From a virus: a DNA stretch of 21,977 bases. The stretch is taken from positions 1 through 21,977 of IMG/VR virus record IMGVR_UViG_3300007960_000235; one strand, written 5' to 3'. Shown here piece after piece: positions 3,934 to 21,523 of this stretch; the stretch's first letter is position 1, and each line of letters begins with the position of its first letter. The notes under the pieces are model-generated. The model saw only the letters and a program-made list of their open reading frames with translations, made no database searches and was not told the origin of the DNA. The translations under genes and the position numbers were made by a program.

Positions 3934-3939
3934 TATAAT
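3934..3939 (+). promoter_or_regulatory. Probable -10 element of uvsX
   Basis: TATAAT is followed by an AT-rich stretch and AGGAG (3951-3955), eight bases before the uvsX ATG. No clear -35 was found; the palindrome 3918-3931 sits where a -35 or activator site would be. Confidence 0.45.
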
Positions 3940-3963
3940 AATATATAAACAGGAGAATTTATA

Positions 3964-5332: not shown

Positions 5333-5334
5333 TA

Positions 5335-6576
5335 ATGGAAGTCAAGTTTCCAATTAAAACAAAAACTTCTTGTCAATTAAAATGGGTTTGGAACACATTA
5401 TATTTAAACTCTGGTAAAAGTTTTTCTTGTCATCGCACCGGTGGTACCGTTCTTACAGAAGATAATTTTGATGATTTCCATAATACTTTGGTATTACTTT
5501 CAGATAGAAAAAATATGCTTAACGGGGAATGGCCTACACGAAGTTGTTCATATTGCCGACAGCTCGAAAATCAAGGCAGTGTAAGCGATCGTATACGCCA
5601 ATGGTCGATACCGTATAAAGTTCCTCAAGAACTAGAAAAAAACCCAACTGCAATATCAGTCACTCCAACAGTACTAGAAGTATATTTTAGCAATGTTTGT
5701 AATATGGGGTGCCTGTATTGTACCTCGCAGTTGAGCTCAGTCATTGAGGCCGAAAATACAAAATTTGGTGATTTTTTAAAAGGAACGGTTAAATTAGTTA
5801 ATCATTCAAATCAATATCAGAAGTTACTGCCGTTGTTTTGGAAATGGTTAGATAAGAACGGTCAAAACTTGTATAGATTAAACATTTTAGGAGGAGAACC
5901 TTTTTTCCAACAAGAGTTTAATACTTTGCTTGAGTATTTAACAGCTAATCCAATGCCAGAATGCGAACTTAATGTAGTAACAAATCTTAAAATTTCAAAG
6001 ATACAATTAGAAAAAATTGTACAGATATTTAGAACATTGCTTAAAAATAGGCACATAAGACGTGTTGATATTACATGCAGTATTGATTGCTGGGGGCCAG
6101 AACAAGAATATGTTAGATACGGAATGGATTTGCGCCAATGGGAAGAGAATTTTAATTATTTGATAACACAAAAATGGCTGACATTAAATATTAACCAAAC
6201 AATATCACCATTAACAATTAAGACTATGCCTGAACTTTTAAGAAAGCTGCATGAGTGGAGACAAAAAAGAAAAATAGGTCATTGGTTTTCTGGAGTATCC
6301 CCGCAACCTGATTATTTAAAAGTTAATGTCCTCGGCGGTGATATATTTGATCAAGACTTTAACGAAATTTTATATCTAATGCCAGATAACAGCAACGAAG
6401 ATCAGTTAGCTAAAAAGTATATGGAAGGTATCTATAAAGAAACGTATTTAACCGGTATAGTTCCTAACCTAGTTAATGATCTGTTTATTTTTCTTGATGA
6501 AAAAGATAGACGCAGAAATACAAATTGGAGAGATGTCTTTCCATGGTTAGTTGACTTTGAAAATAAAATAAAATAA
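5335..6576 (+). CDS. Radical SAM enzyme (twitch/SPASM-like cysteine pattern)
   Basis: The 4Fe-4S-binding motif C-x3-C-x2-C is at Cys122, Cys126 and Cys129 within VCNMGCLYC, and the SAM-binding GGEP is at 186-189. Both are hallmarks of the radical SAM superfamily. Extra cysteines near the N-terminus (Cys13, Cys32, and Cys71-x2-Cys74 followed by a Glu-x-Gly run) suggest an auxiliary cluster domain placed before the core rather than after it. The 413 residues leave a C-terminal region of about 200 without a recognised motif. It starts two bases after the upstream stop with no clear Shine-Dalgarno, which suggests translational coupling. The gene is AT-rich between two core genes. Substrate unknown; peptide or sugar modification is possible. 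Confidence 0.85.
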   Translation: MEVKFPIKTKTSCQLKWVWNTLYLNSGKSFSCHRTGGTVLTEDNFDDFHNTLVLLSDRKNMLNGEWPTRSCSYCRQLENQGSVSDRIRQWSIPYKVPQELEKNPTAISVTPTVLEVYFSNVCNMGCLYCTSQLSSVIEAENTKFGDFLKGTVKLVNHSNQYQKLLPLFWKWLDKNGQNLYRLNILGGEPFFQQEFNTLLEYLTANPMPECELNVVTNLKISKIQLEKIVQIFRTLLKNRHIRRVDITCSIDCWGPEQEYVRYGMDLRQWEENFNYLITQKWLTLNINQTISPLTIKTMPELLRKLHEWRQKRKIGHWFSGVSPQPDYLKVNVLGGDIFDQDFNEILYLMPDNSNEDQLAKKYMEGIYKETYLTGIVPNLVNDLFIFLDEKDRRRNTNWRDVFPWLVDFENKIK

Positions 6577-6580
6577 AATA

Positions 6581-6586
6581 TATAAT
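6581..6586 (+). promoter_or_regulatory. -10-like element next to the uvsY start
   Basis: TATAAT ends only four bases before the uvsY ATG, within a long A/T run that has no Shine-Dalgarno. If used, the transcript would begin at or just inside the start codon. Confidence 0.35.
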
Positions 6587-6590
6587 ATAC

Positions 6591-7043
6591 ATGTGGTATA
6601 ACAAAGTAACACAGGATCTGAGCCAGCTTCCTCAATTCATCGATTATTATAATGATGAGTTGCAGGAAGCCAAACGAGAAGTTCGCATCGGTGGAAATGT
6701 AGAAACCAACATCAAATTATTGCCCGGCGTTACTGAACACAGATTTAACCAGCTTCAGGAAATTGAAGCTGTATTAAACTATCTTAACATTGAGCTGCGT
6801 AAAATTAGACGTCGCCATTTTCAAAAATATCTGGAAGGTTATGCACGTGCATTAACTAGCCGGGATGCTGAAAAATATGTAGACGGAGAAGCAGAAGTTG
6901 TGGACATGGAACTCATCATCAACGAAGTAGCACTATTGCGTAACCGCTGGTTGGGCATCATGAAAGGTTTAGAGACCAAACAGTGGCAAATGGGCCATAT
7001 TGTTAAATTGCGCACCGCAGGAATGGAAGATGTTTCAGTCTAG
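6591..7043 (+). CDS. uvsY: UvsY-like recombination mediator
   Basis: This is a 150-residue basic, helical protein. T4 UvsY (137 residues) is a hexameric mediator that loads UvsX onto gp32-covered ssDNA. The resemblance lies in size, the Arg/Lys-rich helix at about 70-95, a later segment where an acidic turn precedes the central helix, and the C-terminal pattern ending in GHIVKLR, comparable to T4's KHIQDMR. Its position between UvsX and a UvsW-type helicase supports the call. No Shine-Dalgarno is visible; a TATAAT sits four bases upstream. The last 14 bases overlap the methyltransferase gene. Confidence 0.75.
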   Translation: MWYNKVTQDLSQLPQFIDYYNDELQEAKREVRIGGNVETNIKLLPGVTEHRFNQLQEIEAVLNYLNIELRKIRRRHFQKYLEGYARALTSRDAEKYVDGEAEVVDMELIINEVALLRNRWLGIMKGLETKQWQMGHIVKLRTAGMEDVSV

Positions 7044-7773
7044 CCCAGGACAACAGGTTTTAGACTTGCTCGGCAGTTACGATTCTTTCATGGAAAGCGT
7101 TGAATCGGTGGCAGACATGGGGTGTGGTATGGAAGGCCACGACATTGAATGGTGGGCCACTCGTTCTCTTGAAGACGATGATGGAAATCAGATTCCTTTG
7201 AATATTCGTTGTGTGGCTGTGGATTTAATTGAGAGTGTGCAATCAGTACGTCAACTAAAAAATGCAACCTATTACAGGACTGATTTTGAAACCATTCAGT
7301 TACAAAAAAATCAACGCCCATTTGATGTTATCTGGGCAAACAACAGTTTCCAGTATGCACTAAACCCGTTGAATACTCTGAAGCACTGGAGAAACATACT
7401 CAGCGATGGTGGCATGCTAGCAATGGTTGTGCCCAGTACCACTGAGGTGGAATATCATCGTGTTGCGATCACGCAACCAGAATATGTATATCACCATTAC
7501 ACCACAGTTAACCTGTTACACATGCTGTCACTGACCGGGTTTGAATGTGCGTTTATGCAAAAACATCCTGGCGATCCCTGGATTAAAGTAGTAGCATATA
7601 AGTCTAATATTGAGCCCATGGATCCCAGAACCACACGCTGGTACCACTTGGCTGAAACTGGTCTATTACCCGAATCAGCAGTGGCAAGCATCAACAGGTT
7701 TGGGTATTTGCGACAACAAGATTTAGTGTTGGAATGGTTGGACAGATCTGCTCATTGGTTCGGCGAAGATTAA
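7030..7773 (+). CDS. SAM-dependent methyltransferase, class I
   Basis: Motif I, VADMGCGMEG, is at about 28-37 and binds SAM. VAVDLIES follows as the acidic end of strand 2, and FDVIWANNSFQYALNP matches motif IV of the Methyltransf_11/23 type, followed by a GGMLAMVVPS strand. The C-terminal 70 residues are not recognised. The ATG at 7030 is preferred over one at 7000 because GGAATGGAAG lies directly upstream and the homologous fold starts just after it. It overlaps the end of uvsY and heads the glycan-type gene string, so a sugar or small-molecule acceptor is possible. Confidence 0.8.
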   Translation: MFQSSPGQQVLDLLGSYDSFMESVESVADMGCGMEGHDIEWWATRSLEDDDGNQIPLNIRCVAVDLIESVQSVRQLKNATYYRTDFETIQLQKNQRPFDVIWANNSFQYALNPLNTLKHWRNILSDGGMLAMVVPSTTEVEYHRVAITQPEYVYHHYTTVNLLHMLSLTGFECAFMQKHPGDPWIKVVAYKSNIEPMDPRTTRWYHLAETGLLPESAVASINRFGYLRQQDLVLEWLDRSAHWFGED

Positions 7774-7780
7774 ATACACA

Positions 7781-8440
7781 ATGCGTGTAAAAGAATATAG
7801 TGTAATCACATATCCCACACTGGGATTTAACTACATAGCCATACCCAAAACCGGATCAAGTTCTTTTAAGACTGCGTGTTATATTGCTACCAATATAATC
7901 ACTGAAGACAATATTAAAAATCAACCTAGTACCTGGTTTAGAATTGCTAAAAAATCTCTAGTATATGTCAAACCTGACATTGCAATTAATAACAAGCTAT
8001 TGAACATTAGCCATTTTAGGCATCCAATAAGCAGAACAGTATCTCTATATAAGGATTTTATTTTTGGATTTAAAAAAGATACACGTCCTAAAGGTTCAAA
8101 ATCATTTATTCGAGAATTTAACGAAGCAAGACGCAGACAAAACTTTAGGTACTTTGTTGACTTTTTTACTGCTTACTCCGAAGAAGATAGAAATATACAT
8201 TTTAGAACTCAGCATTGGTTTGTAAAAGATTTTTTCAACACACAAACTTTTTTCTTTACTACCGAACAATATGCACAAGGCATTGAACGATTAAATCAGC
8301 AAGGGATTGGTCTAAATCTATATTATATTAATAAAAATACGGCACCGTCAACGGTTACAATTGATACATCTGGTGTTGATGATTTAATATTACGAACTCA
8401 CGAAGCAGATTTAAAACTCTGGGAACAATATAGTGTCTAA
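7781..8440 (+). CDS. Sulfotransferase-like protein, second copy
   Basis: The 219-residue protein carries IPKTGSSSFK (about 21-30, 5'-phosphosulfate loop) and SHFRHPISRTVSLYKDF (about 77-93, 3'-phosphate site) of the Sulfotransfer_2 type. The remaining sequence is rich in aromatic and basic residues. It shares the two PAPS motifs with the protein at 3286 but little else by eye, so the two are probably separate acquisitions rather than a recent duplication. It is AT-rich. No Shine-Dalgarno is seen; TTAAATA (7773-7779) sits just before the ATG. Its 3' end overlaps the GTG of the next gene. Confidence 0.8.
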   Translation: MRVKEYSVITYPTLGFNYIAIPKTGSSSFKTACYIATNIITEDNIKNQPSTWFRIAKKSLVYVKPDIAINNKLLNISHFRHPISRTVSLYKDFIFGFKKDTRPKGSKSFIREFNEARRRQNFRYFVDFFTAYSEEDRNIHFRTQHWFVKDFFNTQTFFFTTEQYAQGIERLNQQGIGLNLYYINKNTAPSTVTIDTSGVDDLILRTHEADLKLWEQYSV

Positions 8441-9011
8441 ATTAACAGCTTTTCTTGCAGTTGAAAAGTTACTCGCTGATTATAAGTTTGAATCCGTGTT
8501 AGACATTGGTTGCGGTTTTGGTAAACATTCAGAAATATTTCGTAATGCAGGCAAATGTGTTACTGCAACTGATATTGCAGATTTTTATCCTGATGCAATA
8601 CGTGGTTTTTATCAAGATTTAAAGTTTGAACCACACGATATTACCTGGGCCAGCCATGTACTGGAACATCAGCTAAACATAAATGAATTTTTAAAAAAAG
8701 TTAGATCAGAAACACGAGATGGTGGATATACCTGTATTACAGTGCCTCCACTAAAACATTCCATTGTGGGAGGGCATGTCAGTTTGTGGAATGCCGGATT
8801 ATTGTTGTATAATCTTGTACTTGCCGGGTTTGATTGCAAAAATGCACGAATTAAAAAATACAAGTATAATATATCAGTCATTGCCCAGGCACACACATTT
8901 GAATTGCCTGATTTGCATTATGATACTGGTGATATCGATCGTTTGAAACCCTGGTTACCAGATTTTTGTACAGAAAGATTCAATGGCGATATTGATGAAT
9001 GGAACTGGTAA
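8433..9011 (+). CDS. SAM-dependent methyltransferase, second copy
   Basis: This is a 192-residue class I methyltransferase. Motif I, VLDIGCGFG, is at 22-30; ATDIAD is at about 45-50; HDITWASHVLEH at about 68-79 is the motif IV region; GGYTCITVPP is at about 97-106. The GLLLYNLVLAGFD segment is typical of the Methyltransf_11/23 group. The start is GTG, overlapping the sulfotransferase-like stop by eight bases, and the stop TAA abuts the next ATG directly, so translation is probably coupled on both sides. Acceptor unknown; O-methylation of a sugar fits the context. Confidence 0.82.
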   Translation: MSKLTAFLAVEKLLADYKFESVLDIGCGFGKHSEIFRNAGKCVTATDIADFYPDAIRGFYQDLKFEPHDITWASHVLEHQLNINEFLKKVRSETRDGGYTCITVPPLKHSIVGGHVSLWNAGLLLYNLVLAGFDCKNARIKKYKYNISVIAQAHTFELPDLHYDTGDIDRLKPWLPDFCTERFNGDIDEWNW

Positions 9012-9938
9012 ATGATAGGTCTTCTGGTTAAATCAGGAAAATGGAAAAAGACCCAATGGGTTGCGAGAGTTGTTGAATCAACTAAACAAGATCAAATGTG
9101 CATTGTTGAGTTTGAAAATATTGATACGTTAGATTTCGATTTTTTTGTGCAAAACGGGTTAAAGAAAAAGATCCGATCCAACAATGCACATTATGAAGCT
9201 GTTGAGCAACTTAGCATAACACAAAACAAACCTATATTGTTACGAGAAGCATCGTCTTTGCGCAACATGGGCACCATTGGCAGTACTAATACCGGGTCTC
9301 GCGTGCCATTTGAATCACGCTGGGGTAAATTGTGTTGGAACAGCTTTTTCATGGACGAAGGAATATTTCCATATGATCCTGCATATGATCGCTGGGCAGA
9401 TTTATCAAAACGTTTCGATTTGCAAGTCAGAGAATGGCAGCGTCGCGGCGATGCCGTGCTGGTTAATCTACAAGTACCAACCGACAGTGCAACTAACAGA
9501 CTAACATATAACGGCATTGAATACCAGGATTATATGATCGATATAATTAAAAAAATTAAAACTATATCTGATCGTCCTGTAATTGTTCGAGGTCATCCCA
9601 CTGAGCCAGGCATGACTGAATATTTCAAACAACATATTCCTGATGTTGAATATTCCGAAGGCCGCCGATTCTATGACGACCTGGATCGATCCTGGTGCAT
9701 GGTTACATATAACAGCACCAGTGCAGTAGAATCTTCGCTGTATGGGACACCAACAATTACACTAGATCCCAGTGCTGTGGCCTGGCCAGTATCACAACAC
9801 TCACTCGAAGATATTGAAACCACGCACGATGCTGATAGATCTAACTGGTGCAAACGCATAGCATTTCATCAGTGGCAGGGTTTTGAAATGACCGATGGGT
9901 ATGTATGGGGATTGCTTAAAGCATGTATGCCCAAGTAA
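9012..9938 (+). CDS. GT-B-like glycosyltransferase, family copy 1
   Basis: This is a 308-residue member of a family with four copies in this window. The shared C-terminal half has DRPVIVRGHP (about 187-196), WCMVTYNSTSAVESSLYG (about 228-245), then a TxxxDPSxxA turn, LEDIE and a closing YVWGLLK. This layout is like the nucleotide-sugar-binding domain of GT-B and capsule-export-type proteins, where an HP pair and an N-S-x-x-x-E/G helix contact the donor. The N-terminal half (Rossmann-like acceptor domain) differs more between copies. Its start abuts the upstream stop. The acceptor and donor cannot be predicted. Confidence 0.6.
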   Translation: MIGLLVKSGKWKKTQWVARVVESTKQDQMCIVEFENIDTLDFDFFVQNGLKKKIRSNNAHYEAVEQLSITQNKPILLREASSLRNMGTIGSTNTGSRVPFESRWGKLCWNSFFMDEGIFPYDPAYDRWADLSKRFDLQVREWQRRGDAVLVNLQVPTDSATNRLTYNGIEYQDYMIDIIKKIKTISDRPVIVRGHPTEPGMTEYFKQHIPDVEYSEGRRFYDDLDRSWCMVTYNSTSAVESSLYGTPTITLDPSAVAWPVSQHSLEDIETTHDADRSNWCKRIAFHQWQGFEMTDGYVWGLLKACMPK

Positions 9939-9943
9939 ATTAA

Positions 9944-9959
9944 TTAACTACGTAGTTAA
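9944..9959. repeat. 16-base perfect palindrome between glycosyltransferase genes
   Basis: TTAACTACGTAGTTAA lies in the 59-base gap after the stop at 9938 and directly before CTAAATA (9960-9966). It may be an operator or part of a promoter region; too short and AT-rich for a strong terminator. Confidence 0.6.
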
Positions 9960-9966
9960 CTAAATA
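9960..9966 (+). promoter_or_regulatory. T4-late-type promoter box candidate
   Basis: CTAAATA resembles the late box (TATAAATA in T4; similar TAAATA boxes are reported for T4-like cyanophages). It is followed by GAGG (9985-9988), nine bases before the ATG at 9998, which gives a normal leader length. Confidence 0.45.
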
Positions 9967-9997
9967 CTGTTTGAAACATAATTTCGAGGCATTACAA

Positions 9998-10681
9998 ATG
10001 AAACCAATTCCAATTTTCATTGGGTATGATCCCAGAGAAGCTATCGCTTTCCACACCTGTGCCAACAGTATTATCAGGCATGCGAGTAAACCAGTAAGTA
10101 TTATTCCGCTAGCACTAAATTTGTTTGATGATTATAGTGAAACACACACTGACGGAAGCAACCATTTTATCTACAGTCGCTTTCTGGTTCCGCATTTAAT
10201 GGACTACCTCGGATGGGCTATTTTTATGGACGGAGATATGATTGTGCGTGACGATATTGTTAAGCTCTGGGAACTGCGTGAAATGGATAAAGATGTAATG
10301 GTAGTTAAGCACGATTATGAAACAAAAATGCAAACCAAGTATCTGGGTGCTAAGAACGAAAATTATCCTCGAAAAAATTGGTCCAGTGTCATACTCTGGA
10401 ATTGCAACAGTCATCCTAACAGAAAGGTTACACCAAAATTTGTTCAGGAATCAACTGGTGCAGAGCTACACAGATTTACCTGGATAAAAGATGAAAGAAT
10501 TGGCGAATTACCACCAGAATGGAACTGGTTGCCTGATGAATACGGACCTAATCCCGATGCTAAATTGTTGCATTATACCCTGGGTACACCAAGTTTCCAT
10601 GAATTTGCTGACACCCCCATGGGTAGTGAATGGCACCGCGAACGTATTCTAACTGAATATTGCGAACAACATAATTTATGA
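9998..10681 (+). CDS. GT-A-like glycosyltransferase
   Basis: This 227-residue protein has the GT-A/GT8-like layout. It begins IPIFIGYDPREAIAFHTC (about 4-21), a nucleotide-binding start of the kind seen in GT8-like phage enzymes. The metal-binding DGD is at about 78-80 within AIFMDGDMIV. A late LLHYTLGTPSF resembles the His-x-x-G-x-P donor-phosphate motif. The ATG at 9998 is chosen for its GAGG nine bases upstream; a longer frame from a TTG lacks a ribosome site. The gene ends in ATGA overlap with the next. Donor and acceptor unknown. Confidence 0.75.
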   Translation: MKPIPIFIGYDPREAIAFHTCANSIIRHASKPVSIIPLALNLFDDYSETHTDGSNHFIYSRFLVPHLMDYLGWAIFMDGDMIVRDDIVKLWELREMDKDVMVVKHDYETKMQTKYLGAKNENYPRKNWSSVILWNCNSHPNRKVTPKFVQESTGAELHRFTWIKDERIGELPPEWNWLPDEYGPNPDAKLLHYTLGTPSFHEFADTPMGSEWHRERILTEYCEQHNL

Positions 10682-11460
10682 TATATTCTTGTGTAACATC
10701 ACAAACATCCAATATCTATAATCATCTGGGTTCTCACATGATTGATACCTGGTTGAGATGCTGGCCCGCAGAATCACAGTTAACCATATACGCTGAAAAT
10801 GTTGATATCAAACAACAGGATTCCAGAATTCGTGTGTTGGACTGGCATGAACATTGCAGCGAAGATTACCACAATTTTAGAACTAATGTCACCAGAGATA
10901 AAAGAACTTCACGATTTGCTAAAAAAGGCTTTAGCTTTCTGCATTTTTTAGAAAACGAAACTGCCAACAATTTAGTTTGGTTGGACAGTGATTTATTATT
11001 TTATAAACAAATGTCAGAATCACTTCTAGAGTCATTGTTGCCAAACGATAAACTAATTGCGTTATTTGATTGTTACTACCAGGAAAACCCAGATTATACC
11101 ACAGAACAATATACTGATTGTGAGTCTCGAGGCAGAATGGCAGCAGAAAGCGGGTTTGTGATCATAAACAAACATAACACACACTACGATGAATATGTAA
11201 AAAATTATCGATCCCTGTACACATCAGTGGAACAGCACCCGGCGTTGTGGAAACGATACGACGGTGAAATTTGTTTGGTAGCTGCTTGTAAATTTTTAGA
11301 TCAGGTAGAAGATTTAAGCAAACATCGTAACACAAACAAAACACAGACACCTCTAAACAGATCGTGGTTGGGTGAATATGTTTCGCACCACAAAGGAAGA
11401 TCAAAGGATGGATATTCCAAAGAACACATACAACACATTTTAAAGGAACAGTCAGCATGA
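10678..11460 (+). CDS. GT-A-like glycosyltransferase, paralogue of the minus-strand gene
   Basis: This is a 260-residue protein with WLDSDLLF at about 101-108, whose DSD fits the GT-A metal motif. It aligns by eye with the minus-strand protein at 16065-16868. Both open with a short strand and a TWLRCWP/SFLKNWP-like segment followed by a Y-A-E triplet (residues 38-40 in both), both have the DxD near 103-128, and both end with W-G-x-Y-x-x-H-x-K-G plus Arg/Lys. It overlaps both neighbours by four bases (ATGA). Donor and acceptor unknown. Confidence 0.7.
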   Translation: MIYSCVTSQTSNIYNHLGSHMIDTWLRCWPAESQLTIYAENVDIKQQDSRIRVLDWHEHCSEDYHNFRTNVTRDKRTSRFAKKGFSFLHFLENETANNLVWLDSDLLFYKQMSESLLESLLPNDKLIALFDCYYQENPDYTTEQYTDCESRGRMAAESGFVIINKHNTHYDEYVKNYRSLYTSVEQHPALWKRYDGEICLVAACKFLDQVEDLSKHRNTNKTQTPLNRSWLGEYVSHHKGRSKDGYSKEHIQHILKEQSA

Positions 11461-12176
11461 CACAAGTTTTTTTAAAATTTCACAGAACAGACGCAGCAGC
11501 ACAATTATGCTTGCGCCATTGGTTAGAAGTTTTTCGTAACCACGACACTGTAATTCTGTGTGATCGGTATGATCCAGCCACACAAGAAACTCCTGATTAT
11601 TTAAAAACTGTTCTGGAAGATTATCCTGTACCAGTTTTAAACAGTGATTATTCGATTGGAGAAAAATATTGCAGAAATCTCAAAGGCGCCAAACGCGGTA
11701 TGGCTTCTGCAAATCTAACACCATTTACAATTACAAATGCAGATGCATTCTGGATGATCGATGCCGACGATACTTTGTTTTTAACCAGAAACTTAAAGTT
11801 GATTCGCGATAAATTGCGTGCCGCAGAAGATTATTTGTTTGCCAACAAACTGGATGGTTTCAGTTTAGATTTTTATCGTAACTTAAATGACTGTTGGACA
11901 TTCGGCGTCTGTTTGTTACGGTCTGACTTAAATTGGAAGATCATTAAAGACATCTCAGACGAAGAAATTCGCGAAACTGGTTTTGCTAGAAATATTGACA
12001 CAGTGTTTGATATCCTACGTCGACGAGAAACCTTTAATTTAAAAAATTTTGTTTTCGACAGAACAGCGTTTCAGCATCAGGAAAACAACTATCCAGAAAT
12101 GCCACACGGTGTCTATGTCTGGCATCGTGGAAAACTCTGGGATAAACCATTACAGGAAGATGTAGTTGTCTTATGA
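11457..12176 (+). CDS. GT-A-like glycosyltransferase with DADD motif
   Basis: The 239-residue protein has FWMIDADDTLFL at about 98-109, giving an acidic DADD in the place of the GT-A DxD. The N-terminal strand-helix (FLKFHRTDAAAQLCLRHW) fits a nucleotide-binding start. The late HQENNYPEMPHGVYVWHRG segment carries histidines that could act in the donor site. It has AAGGA nine bases before the start and overlaps the previous and next genes by ATGA. It is less certain as an active enzyme than its neighbours because the rest of the fold is not clearly recognised. Confidence 0.58.
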   Translation: MTQVFLKFHRTDAAAQLCLRHWLEVFRNHDTVILCDRYDPATQETPDYLKTVLEDYPVPVLNSDYSIGEKYCRNLKGAKRGMASANLTPFTITNADAFWMIDADDTLFLTRNLKLIRDKLRAAEDYLFANKLDGFSLDFYRNLNDCWTFGVCLLRSDLNWKIIKDISDEEIRETGFARNIDTVFDILRRRETFNLKNFVFDRTAFQHQENNYPEMPHGVYVWHRGKLWDKPLQEDVVVL

Positions 12177-13678
12177 ACATTATTGTACAAGCAGGCGGGC
12201 GTGGTAGTAGATTACGCCACCATACCTGGAATAAACCCAAGTGCTTGGTAAGCGTTCGTGGTCGTCCAATTTTATATCAATTGTTTGATCGTTTTCCGGA
12301 TGATACATTTTATATAATTGGTGATTACGCATTTGATAAGTTAGAAGCGTATCTAAAAAACAATGATCCTGGAGTCAAGTATCAATTAATACAAACCAAA
12401 CAAAAAGGAACCTCAGCAGGAATACGAGAGGCTCTCGAAGCAATTAATAATAGTGATTCTGTGCTGTTGACATGGAGTGATCTAATAGTTGGAGAGTTAC
12501 CAGAAAACAACGACAGTGCGCATCCTGTTGCAGTATATACAACTGATGCGTTTACTTGCCGTTGGAGCATCACTGATGGAAAATTACAAGAACGACCCAG
12601 TAATGTTAATGGTATTCCAGGAGTATTTTTATTTAAGAACAAAAAGTTTTTGAGCAATGTACCATCTTCCGGAGAATTTGTGCGTTGGTTTTCAGAAAAC
12701 ATTCTGAGTTATACTGTGGTGCTAGCCAATGATTTAGAAGAACTTGGAGATTTTTCTACAATCGAAGCAAACAATGATTCACAGTTTTGTAGGTTCTTTA
12801 ATCGTGTAGAAGTTAAGGACAATACAGTAGTTAAAACCGCAGTTGATGATGATTATGCTCATTTAATAGACGGAGAAATTGCTTGGTATAAAGAAGTTCT
12901 AAAACTGGGATTTAATCGTATTCCTAAATTATATAATCTAAATCCTTTGGAAATGCAACGTATTCCGGGCAAACACATATGGGAAGTCACTGATTTAACT
13001 GAACGCGAACAGCGCAGTTTACTGGCAGATTATTTAGATAGTTTACATAATCTACACAGTCGCGGCGAAACCATCGCTAATCAGGAACAGGTGCGTGAAG
13101 TCTATATTGAAAAAACTAAAAAACGTGTTGCAAGTGTACAAGATCTAATACCCAACTTTGATCGTTCTGAAATTACTGTAAACGGACGCAAATGCCGCAA
13201 CGTATTTCATTCCAAGCACCAGCAGTTATGGGATCAAATTATTCAATTCACACACGCAGAAAAGTTTACCCCAACACACGGAGATCCAACATTTAGTAAC
13301 ACACTAATTGATCATAACTTAAAAACCTGGTTCATCGATCCTCGTGGATACTTTGTTGATCCTGGCATCTGGGGAGATCCAGATTATGATTTTGCCAAAG
13401 TGTATTATAGTGCAGTTGGTGGTTATGATGCGTTTAATCGAAGAAAGTTTAAGTTATATATTGACGATGAAACCGTAGAAATTATTCAATCTGAACCTGA
13501 AACTTGCAAGGTTGCCGTCGAGTTATTCAAAGAGTTCTTCCCAAAACAATTACGTAAGATTAAAATTTTACATGGATTGATCTGGCTAGCATTATCTGGG
13601 TATGTTCGCGACGACATTGATAGTATTATCGGAAGTTTTTATAACGGTTTATATTGGCTAGAAGATGGCTTATCGTAA
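12173..13678 (+). CDS. Fused nucleotidyltransferase and APH/choline-kinase-like kinase
   Basis: This is a 501-residue two-domain protein. Residues 1-200 are a sugar-phosphate-type nucleotidyltransferase: QAGGRGSRL at 6-14, KPKCLV at 21-26, and LLTWSDLI at about 98-105 supplying the metal-binding Asp. Residues 230-490 are a kinase of the aminoglycoside/choline kinase fold: THGDPTFSN at 368-376 (catalytic Asp371, metal Asn376) and WFIDPRG at 386-392 (Asp389 equivalent to DFG). Separate bacterial pairs of this kind are LicA-LicC (choline) and AmgK-MurU (amino sugar); which substrate applies here is not decided. It would phosphorylate a small molecule and activate it to an NDP- or CDP-derivative. 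It overlaps the upstream gene by four bases. Confidence 0.82.
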   Translation: MNIIVQAGGRGSRLRHHTWNKPKCLVSVRGRPILYQLFDRFPDDTFYIIGDYAFDKLEAYLKNNDPGVKYQLIQTKQKGTSAGIREALEAINNSDSVLLTWSDLIVGELPENNDSAHPVAVYTTDAFTCRWSITDGKLQERPSNVNGIPGVFLFKNKKFLSNVPSSGEFVRWFSENILSYTVVLANDLEELGDFSTIEANNDSQFCRFFNRVEVKDNTVVKTAVDDDYAHLIDGEIAWYKEVLKLGFNRIPKLYNLNPLEMQRIPGKHIWEVTDLTEREQRSLLADYLDSLHNLHSRGETIANQEQVREVYIEKTKKRVASVQDLIPNFDRSEITVNGRKCRNVFHSKHQQLWDQIIQFTHAEKFTPTHGDPTFSNTLIDHNLKTWFIDPRGYFVDPGIWGDPDYDFAKVYYSAVGGYDAFNRRKFKLYIDDETVEIIQSEPETCKVAVELFKEFFPKQLRKIKILHGLIWLALSGYVRDDIDSIIGSFYNGLYWLEDGLS

Positions 13679-13686
13679 ATAGCACT

Positions 13687-15123
13687 ATGATTCCGTTTAA
13701 TCTATCAAAAAATCTCAAACATCTGTGGTTAATAGATGTTGATGGTACCATTCTAAAGCACAATGGATATCTAAAAAACGGCGATGAGCTCTTGCCGGGT
13801 GTAAAAGAGATGTGGGATTCTATTCCAGAAAAAGATGTGATATTCATAATAAGTGCAAGACAATCCAAATACAAGGATATGACACTTGAGTTTCTAGATA
13901 ATCATGGGTTAAGATACAATCACGCTATTTTTGGTGTACCTCATGGCGAGCGCATTGTGATTAATGATAACAAACCTTCGGATAATCTTCAGACTGCGGT
14001 TGCTTGGAATGTGGAGAGAAATGCTGGTTTCGTTGATGTTAGTGCCGACAATATTCAGGTCGAGATTGAACATTTAACAGAAAAAGAAAAAAAGAAAGAA
14101 GCCAAGGCACAGGCTCGATTGGCAAAAATGGAAGAGCTTGCCAGACAGATCGAATCCAACCAAGCAGAGTTTGATATCGATGACCTAAAGTATGCTCACG
14201 AATATAAAGAATTGTTTAAAGATATTGTAAAATACATGACCGATCCAGCAGGACAATATGGCAATGGTGTGTCATTAGAAAAAATCGTCGGTCGAATCAA
14301 CAACACATCTGACGCCCAATTAATTGGTTTAAGTGAAGATGGTGATGTAACGGAAAATGCAAAACGCAAAGGACTTACCATGGATCCGATTGTAGAGAAC
14401 TTTATTATTGGTGCGGCTGGCCGCATTACCACCTGGGATGGCGATGCTGAACATTTAAAAAATCCGATTGCATTGCGCAGCATAGCCAAACGCAAGCAAA
14501 TGCATGCCTGTTTGGAATCTGGCAGAGATTTTTATTATATTGACACTGGATATTTTGGAAATGGAAAAAGTAAGAAATATCATCGTGTAACCAAAAATGC
14601 AATGCAATGGTTAGGTCCTATCGAAGATCGCCCAGCAGATCGTTTTGAAGCTACCGGAGAAAAAATTAAAAAATACACCACTGGAAGCAAAATATTATTG
14701 TGTCCGCCCAGCCAAAAAGCACTCAAATACTGGGATCTGGATTTAAGTGACTGGCTAGAACAAACCATTGATACGATTCGAGAAAATACAGATCGAGAAA
14801 TCGTAATCCGTACCAAACCAACACGTGCCGAACGCATCACAACCAATACCATGGAGCAAGCTCTGTCTGATGATGTTCATTGTCTGGTTACATTTAATAG
14901 TATTGCTGCAATTGAATCACTCATGAACGGAAAACCAGCATTTACCATGGGACCAAATGCTGCACATCATTTGAGTAACCATGATTTATCTGATATTGAA
15001 AATCCATTCATGCCCACACAAGACGAAGTATATGCATTAATGAAGTGTCTGGCATATCATCAGTTCACAGTGGATGAACTCCGCAATGGTTATGCCTGGT
15101 CAATGTTAACTGGAAAATCATGA
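13687..15123 (+). CDS. HAD-phosphatase and GT-B-like fusion, family copy 2
   Basis: This is a 478-residue protein. Residues 11-120 form a HAD domain: DVDGT at 17-21 (nucleophile Asp17, acid Asp19), IISAR at 54-58, and INDNKP at 92-97 with the metal acids. Residues 125-170 are highly charged and probably helical (Lys/Glu/Ala-rich linker). Residues about 280-478 are the GT-B-like family half shared with genes 9012, 15120 and 16882: REIVIRTKPT, CLVTFNSIAAIESLMNG, LSDIE and a closing GYAWSML. The usual HP pair reads KP here. The ATG at 13687 is preferred over an upstream TTG frame inside the previous gene. TAAATA (13675-13680) lies just upstream; no Shine-Dalgarno. Confidence 0.72.
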   Translation: MIPFNLSKNLKHLWLIDVDGTILKHNGYLKNGDELLPGVKEMWDSIPEKDVIFIISARQSKYKDMTLEFLDNHGLRYNHAIFGVPHGERIVINDNKPSDNLQTAVAWNVERNAGFVDVSADNIQVEIEHLTEKEKKKEAKAQARLAKMEELARQIESNQAEFDIDDLKYAHEYKELFKDIVKYMTDPAGQYGNGVSLEKIVGRINNTSDAQLIGLSEDGDVTENAKRKGLTMDPIVENFIIGAAGRITTWDGDAEHLKNPIALRSIAKRKQMHACLESGRDFYYIDTGYFGNGKSKKYHRVTKNAMQWLGPIEDRPADRFEATGEKIKKYTTGSKILLCPPSQKALKYWDLDLSDWLEQTIDTIRENTDREIVIRTKPTRAERITTNTMEQALSDDVHCLVTFNSIAAIESLMNGKPAFTMGPNAAHHLSNHDLSDIENPFMPTQDEVYALMKCLAYHQFTVDELRNGYAWSMLTGKS

Positions 15124-16064
15124 AAGCGGCTGTTTATTTGAGCGGAGTCCCTGCTAAAACCAAACATTCAGAAAAGCGAGAATTGCTTGAAAGGTTTGCG
15201 CGAGGTGTCACCCAGACAGGTGATCCTGTGGAGCGTGTGGATGGATTTAAGGTTGCTGATTGTGATGTTGCTGTGATTCAGGGATGGATTGGCATGAAAT
15301 CCGGCGCACACTTACAGTTAAGAGAAACAGTTATCAACCATCAAAGAAAACACGGTAAACATACACTTATTATTGATCGTAATTTATTTGGATTTTTAGA
15401 TCCTGCTAATCGAGATCGTTACTTGTGTTATAGTTTAAACGGAATTTTTCCAAACACCGGATACTATTTTGATACACGGGTTGATGAATCTCGTTGGGAA
15501 TCTATTAAACAAAATTATGGATTTTCAGAACGCCCTTGGCGCCAGGGGGCAAATGTACTACTCACTTTGCAAAGAAATCACGGCTGGAGTATGGGGCAAC
15601 AAATAAGTATCCAACAATGGCTAGATAATATTATACCAGTTATCAGACAACATACTAGTCGTACTATTGTTTTGCGCCCACACCCCGGGGATCACAAAAC
15701 TCCACGGTCACTAAAAATCAACGATAATAATTGGAGATGGTCGTCTGAAGCAGACATACGTGATGATTTTAACCAGGCCTGGTGTACAGTAACATATAAC
15801 TCAAGCCCTGGGGTAGCCAGCCTATTATGGGGAGTTCCAGCATTTGTTACGGATCCTGAATCAGATAAAAGTCAGGCTTATCCCTGGGCGAGTGCTGATT
15901 TGCGTCAAGTAGGTGCTCCGCCAATGCCTGACAGAACTCTATTTTATCATACAATCAGTCAGAGCCATTTTAACGATCAAGAAATAAACTCGGGTTATGC
16001 TTGGAATTTTATTAAAGAACGTATCCCAGATGCACCCAGAACACCGACGACTCCAATCAGATAA
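15120..16064 (+). CDS. GT-B-like glycosyltransferase, family copy 3
   Basis: This is a 314-residue relative of the genes at 9012 and 16882. TIVLRPHPGD lies in the second half, then AWCTVTYNSSPGVASLLWG, a TDPES turn, and a closing SGYAWNFI. The N-terminal half matches the 16882 protein best: both start with a short strand followed by a helix ending in a DxA-V-I motif and a strand of the HTLIIDRN/PVFVIDVG kind. The start overlaps the previous stop (ATGA). The stop codon abuts the stop of the minus-strand gene, so transcription of the two genes converges here. Confidence 0.62.
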   Translation: MKAAVYLSGVPAKTKHSEKRELLERFARGVTQTGDPVERVDGFKVADCDVAVIQGWIGMKSGAHLQLRETVINHQRKHGKHTLIIDRNLFGFLDPANRDRYLCYSLNGIFPNTGYYFDTRVDESRWESIKQNYGFSERPWRQGANVLLTLQRNHGWSMGQQISIQQWLDNIIPVIRQHTSRTIVLRPHPGDHKTPRSLKINDNNWRWSSEADIRDDFNQAWCTVTYNSSPGVASLLWGVPAFVTDPESDKSQAYPWASADLRQVGAPPMPDRTLFYHTISQSHFNDQEINSGYAWNFIKERIPDAPRTPTTPIR

Positions 16065-16868
16065 TCATCTCCAATAATATTCTGATCTCTGAAATCTGAG
16101 GTCCTTGGCCCTGCTGCGCCCTTCGCGTTTTCTGCTACCTTTGAGATGATCCAAATATGCACCCCATTCTGTATTAATTAATGGATGACCTTCTCCGTTA
16201 AACAGATCTTGTGCCATGTCCAGATTGTTCATGGGTAATGAATCCAGTACCGATTTAAACACATAACTGTCGTGCCATTCTTTGAGAGTAAAAATTCCAT
16301 GTTCAGCGTCTTCGTAATAACGCTCGAATTTTTCCAGGAAGTTTTTGGTATTCTGATGTTCCAGATTCAAGGAATACAGTCCACATTCTGGATATTTTCT
16401 ACCACGACCCAAAAAGCACACATCATATTGTTCAGGCATCAACTGTTTAATTTTATCGATACTAATAGGACTATGGCAATATACATCACCGTCCATCCAA
16501 ATTAACGTGCCTGATTCCACTTCCTGAGCACAGGCAAAAATTGAATAAACTTTGTGTGCAAAACGAATGGCATCCCACTTAAATGCTTTTCTGGCATCTT
16601 TGCGTTTGCTTTTTTCAGGATCTGCTGAAATGTCACCACTGGCACGTGGATCGTTTTTCCAGCGTTCTTTGAATGCCAGCATTTTGGGGCTGCTTTGTTT
16701 TAGATCTCTGACTACCAGATTGGGTGCGGATTCTGCGACTTCACAGTCTTCGGCATAAACATAAAGATTAATTTCAGATGGCCAATTCTTCAGGAATGAT
16801 TCGACCATGCGTTTTCCGTACAGATCATATCCGTTTTTGTTAAATGTAGTGACTACTGTATATTGCAT
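16065..16868 (-). CDS. GT-A-like glycosyltransferase on the opposite strand
   Basis: This is the only minus-strand gene of the window. It has 267 residues with TLIWMDGDVYCHSPI (about 121-135), whose DGD fits the GT-A metal motif. It is a paralogue of the plus-strand gene at 10678 by shared start, DxD position and the closing WGAYLDHLKGSRK. The stop directly abuts the stop of the 15120 gene, and only 13 bases separate its start from the next plus-strand start. No Shine-Dalgarno is visible. TATAAATA on this strand (16882-16875) ends six bases before the ATG. It looks like an inverted cassette within a co-directional string. Confidence 0.75.
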   Translation of the reverse strand: MQYTVVTTFNKNGYDLYGKRMVESFLKNWPSEINLYVYAEDCEVAESAPNLVVRDLKQSSPKMLAFKERWKNDPRASGDISADPEKSKRKDARKAFKWDAIRFAHKVYSIFACAQEVESGTLIWMDGDVYCHSPISIDKIKQLMPEQYDVCFLGRGRKYPECGLYSLNLEHQNTKNFLEKFERYYEDAEHGIFTLKEWHDSYVFKSVLDSLPMNNLDMAQDLFNGEGHPLINTEWGAYLDHLKGSRKREGRSRAKDLRFQRSEYYWR

Positions 16869-16874
16869 AATTAA

Positions 16875-16882
16875 TATTTATA
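16875..16882 (-). promoter_or_regulatory. Perfect T4 late-promoter box before the minus-strand gene
   Basis: Read on the minus strand, TATAAATA matches the T4 late consensus exactly and is followed after six bases by the ATG of the gene ending at 16065. A transcript starting at normal distance would have no leader or almost none. Confidence 0.5.
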
Positions 16883-17718
16883 TGGCACAAAAGAGCATAG
16901 CATACTTTCCAAAACAGGTCGCACTCAACGGTTCTGATGTTCTCAAAGACTTTTTAAAAGGCGCAACCAAACATGGCATGGTGCCTGTGGAGAATAGCAT
17001 GGATGCTGACTATGCTGTGATATGGTCTGTGTTGTGGAACGGCAGAATGGCGGCAAATCAGCGTGTGTATGAACATTATAGACATTTCAATAAACCAGTG
17101 TTTGTTATAGATGTGGGTGCATTACACCGCGAAGTTACCTGGAAAGTAGCCCTCAACAACATCAATGCACATGGTTATTATGGCCACGAACTGGATTTGG
17201 ATCCAGATCGTCCAAAAAAACTGGGCATCAGTTTACGAACGCAAACACATAATAACGGCAAAATATTAATTGCCACGCAGCACCGCAGAAGCCAACAAGT
17301 CAAAGATGTTAATATTGAACAATGGGTCATTCAGATGTACAATAAAATTACGTCAATTACTGATCGGCCAGTTGTAATACGTCCTCACCCCAGATGTAAT
17401 CTTGACGTATATCATTTGCCAGTGGGTGTGGAAATACAAAAACCAGTTAAAATTGCCAACAGCTATGATAAATTTGATTTAGAATATGATTGGTATGCTA
17501 TTGTAAACTACAACAGTGGTCCGGGCATTCAGGGAGCTCTCAATGGGTGTCATGTTATAGTTAATGATTCCAGTCTGGCATATCCAGTTTCAACCACACT
17601 GGAAAATCCTGTTTATACACCACGCGATGAATGGTTGATAAGTATTGCACACACGGAATACACCCGAGAAGAACTCAGACAAGGCTTATGTCTAAAAAGG
17701 CTAGCAGAAAAGCTCTAG
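16882..17718 (+). CDS. GT-B-like glycosyltransferase, family copy 4
   Basis: The protein has 278 residues from the ATG at 16882; an upstream frame extending into the minus-strand gene is not supported because the homologous start YFPKQ matches just after this ATG. DRPVVIRPHPRC and YAIVNYNSGPGIQGALNG are the donor-site segments, followed by NDSSLAYPVS and a closing C-terminal helix. It is closest by eye to the 15120 protein over the N-terminal half. No Shine-Dalgarno is seen. Its last 31 bases overlap the next gene. Confidence 0.62.
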   Translation: MAQKSIAYFPKQVALNGSDVLKDFLKGATKHGMVPVENSMDADYAVIWSVLWNGRMAANQRVYEHYRHFNKPVFVIDVGALHREVTWKVALNNINAHGYYGHELDLDPDRPKKLGISLRTQTHNNGKILIATQHRRSQQVKDVNIEQWVIQMYNKITSITDRPVVIRPHPRCNLDVYHLPVGVEIQKPVKIANSYDKFDLEYDWYAIVNYNSGPGIQGALNGCHVIVNDSSLAYPVSTTLENPVYTPRDEWLISIAHTEYTREELRQGLCLKRLAEKL

Positions 17719-18473
17719 AAGCACCACTGGTTCCAGACCCGCCCAGTGTGCCTCAGAATAAAACAGGCGCACCTGTTGATTGCGCCTGTGTGATTCACGG
17801 ATCATATTATTCATTTGATTATGTACACAAATTGTACAATGGATTATGCCGTAACTTATCCAAACCAGTGCGTTTGCATGTTTATACCGAAGCAGAACGC
17901 ATTGTGCCGGGGCCATACATTCATCATCCACTAAAAAATCTAGGTGTTGAGGGACCCAAAAAAAGCTGGTGGTACAAAACACAACTGTTTGACAGCACTC
18001 AGTTTTCTGGTCAACTGTTATATTTAGATCTTGATGTCGTTATTGTAGACAACATTGATTTTTTTACTGAACTTTCCACTGATTGTTTTTGGGGAATCAG
18101 AGATTTTAGATACTTGTTTAATAAAACACGGCGCAATCTAAACAGCAGCATCATGTATTTTGATACACAAAAATTTAATTATGTGTGGCAGCAATTTTTG
18201 TCTAATCCTGATGAGCATATGAGACGATTACACGGAGATCAGGATTTTATTGATCGCGCGATACCGCCCACTGATAAAAAGTTTTTTGATGAAGACTTAA
18301 TAAAGAGCTGGCGTTGGCAACTGTTGGATGGTGGTTATGACGTCAAAACCAGACGACATCGCAATCCCGGTTCTGGTACTAAAATTACAACTCCAACCAG
18401 AGTCATGGTTTTTCATGGAAAACCAAAAATACACGATGTAAATGATGCAATTATTCATAAATACTGGTGTTAA
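17688..18473 (+). CDS. GT-A-like glycosyltransferase with HGDQDF motif
   Basis: This is a 261-residue protein. LLYLDLDVVIVDNID (about 110-124) supplies the metal DLD at 114-116, LHGDQDFIDRA (about 181-191) is the acceptor-side motif, and MVFHGKPKIHD near the end is the donor-phosphate motif. All are usual in GT8-type and related enzymes. The N-terminus has a basic, proline-rich stretch of about 25 residues. The ATG at 17688 has AAGG just upstream and is preferred over a longer frame beginning at 17631. It closes the main glycosyltransferase string. Donor and acceptor unknown. Confidence 0.8.
   Translation: MSKKASRKALEAPLVPDPPSVPQNKTGAPVDCACVIHGSYYSFDYVHKLYNGLCRNLSKPVRLHVYTEAERIVPGPYIHHPLKNLGVEGPKKSWWYKTQLFDSTQFSGQLLYLDLDVVIVDNIDFFTELSTDCFWGIRDFRYLFNKTRRNLNSSIMYFDTQKFNYVWQQFLSNPDEHMRRLHGDQDFIDRAIPPTDKKFFDEDLIKSWRWQLLDGGYDVKTRRHRNPGSGTKITTPTRVMVFHGKPKIHDVNDAIIHKYWC
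18456..18463 (+). promoter_or_regulatory. Late-promoter-like box before the 18501 gene
   Basis: CATAAATA differs from the T4 late consensus TATAAATA at one base and lies 37 bases before the next ATG, leaving room for the GGAG at 18489-18492. It sits inside the end of the preceding gene. Confidence 0.4.
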
Positions 18474-19159: not shown

Positions 19160-19188
19160 TTGACAATCACTACAAAAGTAACTATAAT
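19160..19188 (+). promoter_or_regulatory. Consensus sigma-70 promoter for the ATPase gene
   Basis: TTGACA (19160-19165), a 17-base spacer and TATAAT (19183-19188) match the bacterial housekeeping consensus exactly. It is followed by GGAG (19219-19222), six bases before the start. This is expected of a phage early promoter used by host RNA polymerase. The 188-base stretch from 19041 to 19228 contains no gene; it holds the terminator, an extra TATAAT (19105-19110), the inverted repeat and this promoter. Confidence 0.85.
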
Positions 19189-19228
19189 AAACACTCATTC
19201 AACAACATAGTAAACGTAGGAGTTAGAT

Positions 19229-20248
19229 ATGAATGTGCGTATTTCTTATGGTACATATCGTGCAGACAACGGGTCTGTACAAGAAGTACACGATCAAATT
19301 TTTGAGGCAATTGCTCCTGTTAAACACGGCAAAAAGGGAGCATACATTACTGTGCGTGCCAATGACACAGTTAAATCACAGCGAGATAAAATCCGGGTAA
19401 AAATTCAAGAACAAGATCTTGAATATCTGGATGCACCACTTCTGTCGCCAACGACTGCACAACTTACAGAAACTGATGATCAAGTCATGGACCGCATTGA
19501 AACACGGTTCAATGTTCTGGAAGAGATGACACGAGCAGCAATCAACAGTAATGTTCGAGCAATGATTGTGGTGGGTCCGCCGGGTGTGGGTAAAAGTTAT
19601 GGAGTACAAGCACAACTTGAAAAAAGTTCTATGTTTGATCGTCTGGCAGGCAGCAAGGTCAAGTATGAAGTTGTTAAAGGTGCTATGACCCCAATCGGGT
19701 TATATGCCACACTTTACAACCATGCCGATAAAGGCAATGTGCTTGTGTTTGACGATTGCGACAGCATCTTGCTCGACGATTTATCACTGAATTTGCTTAA
19801 AGCGGCCCTTGATTCTGGGAAGAAGCGCACTATCCACTGGAATGCGGACAGTTCGCTGCTGCGTCGTGAAGGTATCCCAGACCGCTTTGACTTCCACGGC
19901 GCAGTAATTTTTATTACTAACCTGAAGTTTGACCATGTGCGCAGCAAGAAGTTGCAGGATCACTTGGAAGCACTTCAGAGTCGTTGCCACTATATTGATC
20001 TAACTCTAGACACCATGCGTGACCGTTTATTGCGCATCAAACAAATTCATCGCAAGGGTGACCTGTTTGAACACTACTTTTTTCAAGGTAATGAGGGAGA
20101 ACAGGTAATTACTTTTATGGAAGAGAATCAAAATAAACTGCGTGAAATGAGTTTGCGCATGGCGCTCAAGCTGGCAGACTTAATTAAGGTCAGTCCTACT
20201 CGTTGGAAGGACATGGCCGAAGTAACTTGCATGAAGACAAGTTTTTAA
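19229..20248 (+). CDS. AAA+ ATPase of T4-like marine phages
   Basis: This is a 339-residue protein. The N-terminal 95 residues are not recognised. The AAA+ core has Walker A GPPGVGKS at 116-123, Walker B VLVFDDCDS at 171-179, sensor 1 Asn231 in AVIFITN, and a likely arginine finger in SRC at about 252. The family is common in T4-like marine phages but its role is not settled; the AAA+ core suggests a motor or remodeller. It begins a new transcription unit with a consensus promoter and ends at a pair of hairpins and a terminator. Confidence 0.85.
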   Translation: MNVRISYGTYRADNGSVQEVHDQIFEAIAPVKHGKKGAYITVRANDTVKSQRDKIRVKIQEQDLEYLDAPLLSPTTAQLTETDDQVMDRIETRFNVLEEMTRAAINSNVRAMIVVGPPGVGKSYGVQAQLEKSSMFDRLAGSKVKYEVVKGAMTPIGLYATLYNHADKGNVLVFDDCDSILLDDLSLNLLKAALDSGKKRTIHWNADSSLLRREGIPDRFDFHGAVIFITNLKFDHVRSKKLQDHLEALQSRCHYIDLTLDTMRDRLLRIKQIHRKGDLFEHYFFQGNEGEQVITFMEENQNKLREMSLRMALKLADLIKVSPTRWKDMAEVTCMKTSF

Positions 20249-20343
20249 TCAGAGAACACAATATGCTATGTTGAACTCCTACGTTCTTTGGTTAAAAAGT
20301 AGCTAAGAAACACATTCAAGTTGAACTCCCAAGTTTCTTAGTT
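20242..20343 (+). ncRNA. Tandem structured RNA hairpins in the ATPase 3' region
   Basis: Hairpin 1 pairs 20242-20257 with 20283-20298 (16 pairs, two G-U) and includes the ATPase stop codon. Hairpin 2 pairs 20301-20311 with 20333-20343 (11 pairs, one G-U). Both loops (25 and 21 bases) begin with ACA and contain GTTGAACTCC in the same place. The lower stems differ at several positions while staying paired, for example G-C against A-U and C-G against U-A. Hairpin 2 is followed by a T run (to 20347), so it may also act as a terminator. No known RNA family is recognised. Confidence 0.6.
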
Positions 20344-20348
20344 TTTTG

Positions 20349-20380
20349 GCGCAAGATGAAATACTCTTGCGCTTTTTTTT
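20349..20380 (+). terminator. Rho-independent terminator before the 20402 gene
   Basis: GCGCAAGA (20349-20356) pairs with TCTTGCGC (20365-20372) around an eight-base loop, followed by eight T. Confidence 0.92.
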
Positions 20381-20386: not shown

Positions 20387-20395
20387 TGTTATAAT
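20387..20395 (+). promoter_or_regulatory. Extended -10 promoter at the start of the 20402 gene
   Basis: TGTTATAAT is an exact TGn-TATAAT element. It ends six bases before the ATG at 20402, so transcription would start at or next to the start codon. Confidence 0.65.
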
Positions 20396-20401
20396 AAGTG
20401 T

Positions 20402-21523
20402 ATGATAAGAAAAGTCATAGATCGAGATTCGGCACATTTGTGGATGCGTGAAAACTTGCGCTTCAGTCGCTACGACATTAACTTTGTGGAAAATGTTGCA
20501 CGCTATATCGATCGAGGACGTTCGCTCACAGTCAAACAAAATGACTTGTGGGAAAAGATTGTACACAAGTATCGCAAGCAGATATTTTCAGAATCAAACG
20601 GCACAATCACAGACGAACTTATTTTAGACAAACAATGGACTAATCCTGTTGTAGAGTTTGATCCTGAATATGCTCCATTATTATGGATCAAAGACGATCA
20701 CATCTGTTTGCGCTTTCCCTATAACAAAGACACAGTAGCAGACCTACGCAGAATGCTACAGGATACCGGACACGACTACGGACTAATATCATATGTTCAT
20801 CCGGATCAGTATTTTAGTTGGGACAAACAACAACGCATTTGGCACGGTACTGCATACGCAACACTAATCCGAGATTTAACAGAGTTTGCACTTGATCACG
20901 AGTTTGCAATTGATGCAAGCGTAAAAGAAATTGTAGATTCGGTATCTGGCGACGAGTTTGATTGGTGTCCAGTTGCAGAACTACACGGCGACGGCTACAT
21001 GGTGAGTAATTTAAGTGCAGGTTTACTACGAGCATTACCCGCAAACGAGATTACACTTGATACAGTACGTGAACTTGTTGGACTAAAAGTTACAATCAGT
21101 GATGCAATGCAGAGTCGTGTAGCACAGAAATACGGGGTTCAACTAGGTCGCATTGCATGTCAGCGAACAGCAACCGTAATGGTAGATGATATCAACACAC
21201 TTAAAGAATATTTTAAACGTACCGATCATCGACTAGTTGTTTATCATAGACAGTATCAACAGTATACAGACGCAACCGCAAATGAAGAACAAGAAACACT
21301 TACGCCAACAAAGTTTGTTAGTTTGGCAGATTTTAGAGCGCACAACAAAGGGTTAGGTGACTATTATGTGTACAGTAAAGACACAGATAACTATACACTA
21401 GACCACGGAGTTGATTGTGTGGTGTTTATGCCCGATGTATCGTTTCCGTTTGATGCATTATCTAACATTGCTAAGAAGGTAATTACAGTAGTACAAAATG
21501 AAACTAGCACGCCTAATAATTAA
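20402..21523 (+). CDS. Conserved-type phage protein of unknown function before uvsW
   Basis: This is a 373-residue protein from the ATG at 20402; an upstream TTG frame would cross the promoter. No catalytic motif was found. Residues about 95-160 show a strand-helix pattern ending in a WDKQQRIWHG turn, which resembles the ssDNA-binding HARP-like accessory domain of SNF2 helicases, but only loosely. It overlaps uvsW by 26 bases and probably acts with it. The gene lies downstream of a canonical terminator and has its own extended -10, so it starts a separate unit, possibly leaderless. Confidence 0.75.
   Translation: MIRKVIDRDSAHLWMRENLRFSRYDINFVENVARYIDRGRSLTVKQNDLWEKIVHKYRKQIFSESNGTITDELILDKQWTNPVVEFDPEYAPLLWIKDDHICLRFPYNKDTVADLRRMLQDTGHDYGLISYVHPDQYFSWDKQQRIWHGTAYATLIRDLTEFALDHEFAIDASVKEIVDSVSGDEFDWCPVAELHGDGYMVSNLSAGLLRALPANEITLDTVRELVGLKVTISDAMQSRVAQKYGVQLGRIACQRTATVMVDDINTLKEYFKRTDHRLVVYHRQYQQYTDATANEEQETLTPTKFVSLADFRAHNKGLGDYYVYSKDTDNYTLDHGVDCVVFMPDVSFPFDALSNIAKKVITVVQNETSTPNN

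Follow-up and report, generated by a model that had tools for sequence, protein, structure and literature searches.

Hairpin loops in the 3' untranslated region of a phage nrdC.10-like ATPase gene are complementary to, and covary with, the gene's own ribosome-binding site

The window analyzed here (i.e., the whole stretch of 21,977 nucleotides of the virus record IMGVR_UViG_3300007960_000235) contains a long run of genes whose translations, by reading only, resemble glycosyltransferases, sulfotransferases, radical-SAM proteins, and methyltransferases. This run lies between gp32/uvsX and a gene for a 339-aa protein of phrog_1250, which is the family of T4 nrdC.10 according to the annotation of its hits. 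An AAA+ fold is predicted for this protein. The gene has its own consensus promoter and is followed by two hairpins and a separate intrinsic terminator, so it probably forms a stand-alone transcription unit of about 1.2 kb. The coordinates of the features are given in the table.

Table. Features of the ATPase transcription unit and its surroundings (window positions)
Feature	Position	Strand	Description	Support
Gene run	1179-18473		glycosyltransferase-, sulfotransferase-, radical-SAM-, and methyltransferase-like genes	reading of translations only
Promoter	19160-19188	+	sigma-70-type, TTGACA-17-TATAAT; predicted 5' UTR of about 33 nt	12 of 12 consensus match; 126 of 135 non-redundant relatives have such a promoter with the -10 about 32 nt before the start codon
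Additional 5' match	19201-19211		CAACATAG, in the 5' UTR	complementary to CTATGTTG in loop 1
5' partner	19213-19224	+	AACGTAGGAGTT, the Shine-Dalgarno sequence (SD; GGAG, 19219-19222) and its flanks	perfect 12-nt complement to 20274-20285; SD/element covariation across relatives
Translation start region	19219-19237	+	SD, ATG (19229), and codons 2-3; can pair with loop 2	minimum free energy structure of the whole mRNA pairs 19219-19224, 19226-19228, and 19230-19234 with 20314-20329
ATPase gene	19229-20248	+	nrdC.10-like AAA+ ATPase (fold predicted), phrog_1250; the proposed regulated gene	phrog_1250, E = 3.6e-86; AlphaFold2 mean pLDDT of 87.4; Foldseek matches to AAA+ proteins
Hairpin 1	20245-20295	+	13 bp (20245-20257 with 20283-20295); loop carries GTTGAACTCCTACG, complementary to CGTAGGAGTT of the SD region	folding; whole-mRNA folding; stem covariation
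Additional 3' match	20266-20273		CTATGTTG, 5' half of loop 1	complementary to CAACATAG
Loop motif, copy 1	20270-20279		GTTGAACTCC	exact copy
Hairpin 2	20301-20343	+	11 bp (20301-20311 with 20333-20343); loop ACATTCAAGTTGAACTCCCAA is complementary to SD, start codon, and codons 2-3	folding; whole-mRNA folding; stem covariation
Loop motif, copy 2	20320-20329		GTTGAACTCC	exact copy
Terminator	20348-20380	+	intrinsic; ends the transcript
Start of next gene	20390-20404		TATAAT ending 6 nt before an ATG (20402)

The tandem hairpins reported in a preliminary description of this sequence are real. Their free energies were -13.0 and -10.1 kcal/mol, compared with means of -5.6 and -4.2 for shuffled sequences (z of -3.47 and -2.96; 1 of 200 shuffles was as good in each case); energies no better than those of shuffled sequence had been named in advance as grounds for rejecting the observation. 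Both loops open with ACA, and both carry the same motif, of which only these two exact copies were found in the window. The motif lies 3 nt before the 3' arm in both hairpins, whereas its offsets from the 5' arm differ (12 and 8 nt). The stem swaps described previously (GC/AU, AU/GC, and CG/UA) are present by direct reading, and the separation of the terminator from the hairpins was confirmed. Two corrections are needed. The stem of hairpin 1 starts inside the stop codon of the ATPase gene rather than after the gene, and two copies alone prove little. A hairpin followed directly by a U tract is not the whole function of the region, because the terminator is separate and the hairpins carry the SD complement. 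No Rfam family matched the window at the gathering score, and an E-value search gave a best subthreshold hit of 24.4 bits against a gathering score of 52.

To examine whether related phages carry similar elements, we read 80 IMG/VR loci with a related ATPase past the stop codon (individual loci are hereafter numbered with the prefix L). Most had a hairpin element between the stop codon and the terminator, in one of three arrangements: the motif on the 3' side of a large hairpin loop (the window and the TCTAGCTCC group), the motif single-stranded just before a hairpin (the GGTAGCTCC group), or the motif in the loop of a G+C-rich hairpin (the GTTGGCTCC group). In 22 distinct hairpins of the first arrangement, 20 of them from relatives, 90.9% of cells were paired and 39 were double changed, with a covariation score of 0.623 against 0.260 for shuffles (0 of 500); sliding the register destroyed the signal. 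The absence of further covarying copies had also been set beforehand as a refuting outcome, and that outcome was not observed. We also considered whether the motif is a general phage element. A 15-mer pattern scan of IMG/VR for AGTCTAGCTCCTAGG gave 43 places, nearly all right behind this ATPase or, in four, one insert further on. Of the four places without an ATPase match, three lie at a contig end and one (L121) does not.

Reading the 5' ends of the same genes showed that the motif is the reverse complement of the gene's own SD region and that the two change together. In the window, CGTAGGAGTT is matched by AACTCCTACG (GGAGTT with AACTCC). In the TCTAGCTCC group, GGAGCTAG occurs with CTAGCTCC, or GGAGC(C/A)TAGAC with GTCTAGCTCC and one bulged base, or GGAGC-AGACTA with TAGTCT-A-GCTCC. 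In L009 to L012 and L016, GGAGCAA occurs with TTGCTCC; in the GTTGGCTCC group, GGAGCCAAC with GTTGGCTCC; in L229, GGAGTTGGC with GCCAACTCC; in L323, CAGGAGTTAAA with TTTAACTCCTG; and in L328 and L329, CTAGGAGA with TCTCCTAG. The SD core itself is compensated in L075, L079, L182, and L190, where the SD is GGGG and the element contains GCCC (GGGGCTAGAAA with TTTCTAGCCC). In L375 and L380, a quite different sequence next to the SD, TTCCACGCAAA (CCACGCAAA in both), is matched by TTTGCGTGGAA in a hairpin loop.

The covariation between the SD region and the element was supported by several tests. When the first CTCC of the 3' UTR was taken blindly, 54 distinct pairs had a mean duplex energy of -15.1, compared with -13.6 (standard deviation, 0.26) for permuted partners (0 of 20,000 permutations). 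Three more scans brought the collection to 305 ATPase loci, of which 141 were below 95% identity and 112 of these non-redundant loci had a detected terminator. Between positions -22 to -1 and the 90 nt before the terminator, a perfect complement of at least 8 nt occurred in 56% of own pairs and in 13% of pairs with loci less than 75% identical; for at least 9 nt, these values were 36% and 5%. A complement of at least 7 nt was found in 80% of own pairs and in 17% with reversed sequence, so that about one-fifth of the loci with a terminator show no match of this length. A single 9-nt match in one genome is near chance, and the case rests on comparison. A first CTCC/GCCC selection rule was polluted by stem sequences and was replaced. 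With the element chosen, without reference to the SD, as the last CTCC before the terminator, 40 distinct SD/element pairs gave 40 double-changed cells against 13 in shuffles and a covariation score of 0.270 against 0.118 (0 of 500), and sliding the register destroyed the signal. The position after GGAG paired in 39 of 40 as C-G, U-A, A-U, or U-G. Seventeen loci in which pairing requires a one-nucleotide bulge or mismatch were left out of this count. On the ATPase tree, supported independent contrasts at SD+5 went the same way in 7 cases and the opposite way in none, with 3 unchanged (P = 0.016); an earlier version with another selection rule gave 6, 0, and 4.

These results bear on the idea that the hairpins are binding sites for a phage or host protein, or a processing site, and that the complementarity is secondary. 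Stem-loops with conserved loop letters are typical protein sites, and the stem covariation fits this reading too. However, the loop letters are conserved only within clades and change together with the SD, the motif in some clades is single-stranded beside a hairpin rather than in a loop, and L375 and L380 have an unrelated sequence. We therefore regard this explanation as very unlikely. The preliminary interpretation was thus partly supported. It correctly proposed selection on RNA structure beyond termination, but it suggested a protein, an sRNA, or an mRNA processing site to account for the motif, none of which is needed, and it missed that the partner in the sequence is the ribosome-binding site of the same gene about 1 kb upstream; which protein, if any, assists was not identified. 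An even more remote possibility is a DNA-level inverted repeat, serving as a protein-binding site or a mobile-cassette end flanking the gene. The two sequences are indeed inverted repeats in the DNA, but the upstream copy sits on the SD at SD spacing, the downstream copy sits in an RNA hairpin whose stem covaries, and whole genes lie inside the repeat in some relatives.

Where genes were inserted behind the ATPase (L002 [+1.18 kb], L056, L067, L070 [+1.77 kb], and L083), the element stays at the operon end, still before the terminator. In L002, a close relative, the insert (positions 4979 to 6160) is over 1.1 kb of extra sequence that is apparently a gene. Motif nucleotides were more often unpaired than their region (probability of 0.69 against 0.47; higher in 92 of 96). 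In the window, predicted duplexes with the start region had energies of -20.7 kcal/mol for loop 1 and -20.0 kcal/mol for loop 2, compared with -7.3 kcal/mol for the 16S anti-SD tail. Loop 2, including its ACATTCA opening (the start of which had been noted previously as ACA), pairs with the SD, start codon, and codons 2-3, and the minimum free energy structure of the 1,191-nt transcript contains this pairing. Over 73 non-redundant transcripts, an average of 7.4 of the 19 nt from SD to AUG paired with the 3' UTR, compared with 0.1 with coding windows of equal length and 2.3 after the 3' UTR was shuffled. Folding of whole mRNAs of 1.2 kb is unreliable, and the shuffled null is not zero. In the window, the 5' half of loop 1 also matches the 5' UTR upstream of the SD (the additional matches in the table; 11 nt in L001). 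These two helices seem sterically exclusive, as the second match cannot easily form together with the SD pairing in one pair of partners, and we have no explanation for it.

Specificity was examined in five large contigs, in which the ATPase start had the longest perfect match to the element of 105 to 238 gene starts, with one tie. The octamer TAGCTCCT occurs on either strand only at the SD and the element of a 222-kb contig. Other genes of the five contigs showed no excess of complement between their own SD and their own 3' region over permuted genes, so the device belongs to this gene. By energy, however, other gene starts sometimes score as well as the ATPase start. In two of the contigs (G006 and G007), a conserved 144-aa gene has the start TAGGAGCCAGACATG, with a predicted energy of -17.2 with the element against -16.1 for the ATPase start. 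This gene could be a second target, but no homologue was found in the three other contigs examined. No regulon of other genes with matching SDs that track the element across clades was found, and the presence of a few starts with similar energies leaves the matter of conserved additional targets undecided. These observations are relevant to a reading in which the 3' UTR is cut off or accumulates as a small RNA and acts in trans on the ATPase mRNA, as negative feedback, and perhaps on other phage or host mRNAs with similar SDs. A hairpin with an exposed CU-rich loop plus a terminator is the anatomy of many sRNAs, and OppZ and CarZ of Vibrio cholerae are self-targeting 3' UTR sRNAs that inhibit translation of their own transcripts (PMC7398697). 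Those sRNAs are cut out by RNase E and act in trans, whereas no evidence of processing, which sequence analysis does not reveal, is at hand here. In addition, no promoter-like site precedes the element in the window, and the element covaries with the ATPase SD. Trans action is not excluded, but we consider this reading unlikely.

Taken together, the hairpins are best explained, with fairly good confidence, as a cis-acting translational off-switch in the 3' UTR of the ATPase mRNA. In this model, each hairpin holds, on the 3' side of a large loop, a sequence complementary to the SD region of the same mRNA. Once RNA polymerase has made the 3' end, a loop would pair with the SD (in the window, also with the start codon and first codons), so that 30S subunits could not bind; nascent mRNA could be translated, and the finished mRNA would close itself. 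Our analysis demonstrates the complementarity, the covariation, the exposed position in a conserved hairpin, the constant place before the terminator, and the predicted whole-mRNA folding. That pairing lowers translation, that it acts within one molecule, and the timing are inferences, as no expression data were examined and neither 30S binding, protein level, nor RNase III cleavage of the duplex was measured. A further, tentative possibility is that the element is a conserved phage device for timed, self-limiting expression, in which the mRNA is translated only while being transcribed, so that each transcript gives a fixed burst of protein independent of any regulator protein. Alternatively, the pairing may protect rather than repress, shielding the 5' end or the GGAG sequence from an RNase. 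In Bacillus subtilis hbs, a 14-nt pairing of the two UTRs of one mRNA protects it from RNase Y (PMC7821165), and T4 RegB cuts GGAG in SDs (PMC3014915). This alternative appears unlikely, since the pairing covers the SD and start codon, which would block initiation, and is kept where the SD is GGGG or GGAA.

The closest known system is the icaR 3' UTR of Staphylococcus aureus, in which an anti-SD motif (UCCCCUG) pairs with the SD of the same mRNA and blocks initiation, with cis or trans action not settled there either (PMC3868564). icaR is cellular, and its UCCCC motif or an equivalent is lacking in Staphylococcus epidermidis (PMC7821165). The element described here belongs to a phage gene, lies in a compact hairpin just before the terminator, is conserved over ATPases down to about 55% identity, and covaries with the SD. 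A review lists icaR, hbs, and RNAIII as cases and notes poor conservation (PMC7821165). In hok and AapA3 type I toxin mRNAs, long-distance pairing of the 3' end with the start region keeps the full-length mRNA inert (PMC6733600). Those mRNAs encode toxins, have an antisense antitoxin, and are activated by 3' trimming, none of which was seen or tested here; the gene product is an ATPase of 339 aa rather than a small toxic membrane peptide. In T4, start-region structures hide the SD or AUG of genes e, soc, 49, and I-TevI in helices at the translation initiation region, whereas the partner here is about 1 kb downstream, beyond the coding region. The text of the review describing them has no hit for "UTR" or "long-range" (PMC3014915), although our literature coverage was incomplete and an earlier report may have been missed. 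The few known bacterial mRNAs that pair their 3' UTR with their own SD are single cases, poorly conserved between species. The maintenance of this arrangement across a large group of phages, with many compensatory changes including one in the SD core, is strong comparative evidence that such long-range closure is selected. It provides a series of natural variants in which cis versus trans action and the effect of transcription-translation coupling on closure are testable, and it gives the uncharacterized T4-type nrdC.10 family a feature: the phage appears to keep its dose under control.

Among cultured relatives, Acj9, VAP7, and Citrobacter Ci1 showed no clear element by eye. PA5oct (L126), a cultured jumbo phage of Pseudomonas aeruginosa with a 46% identical homologue, has a weaker candidate (SD AGTAGCAT with ATGCTACT downstream). 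In this phage, AGGAGTAGCAT before the homologue (about 2140 to 2170) and ATGCTACTTTCC in a hairpin after it (3322 to 3360) form 8 pairs plus two G-U, which is suggestive only. Contig G007 encodes a second, 279-aa nrdC.10-like paralogue (position 71010; L159), which is followed directly by another promoter and gene, without the element. In the window, the short distance between TATAAT and ATG in the gene after the terminator suggests that its mRNA may be leaderless, and similar short spacing is seen behind the terminator in many relatives.
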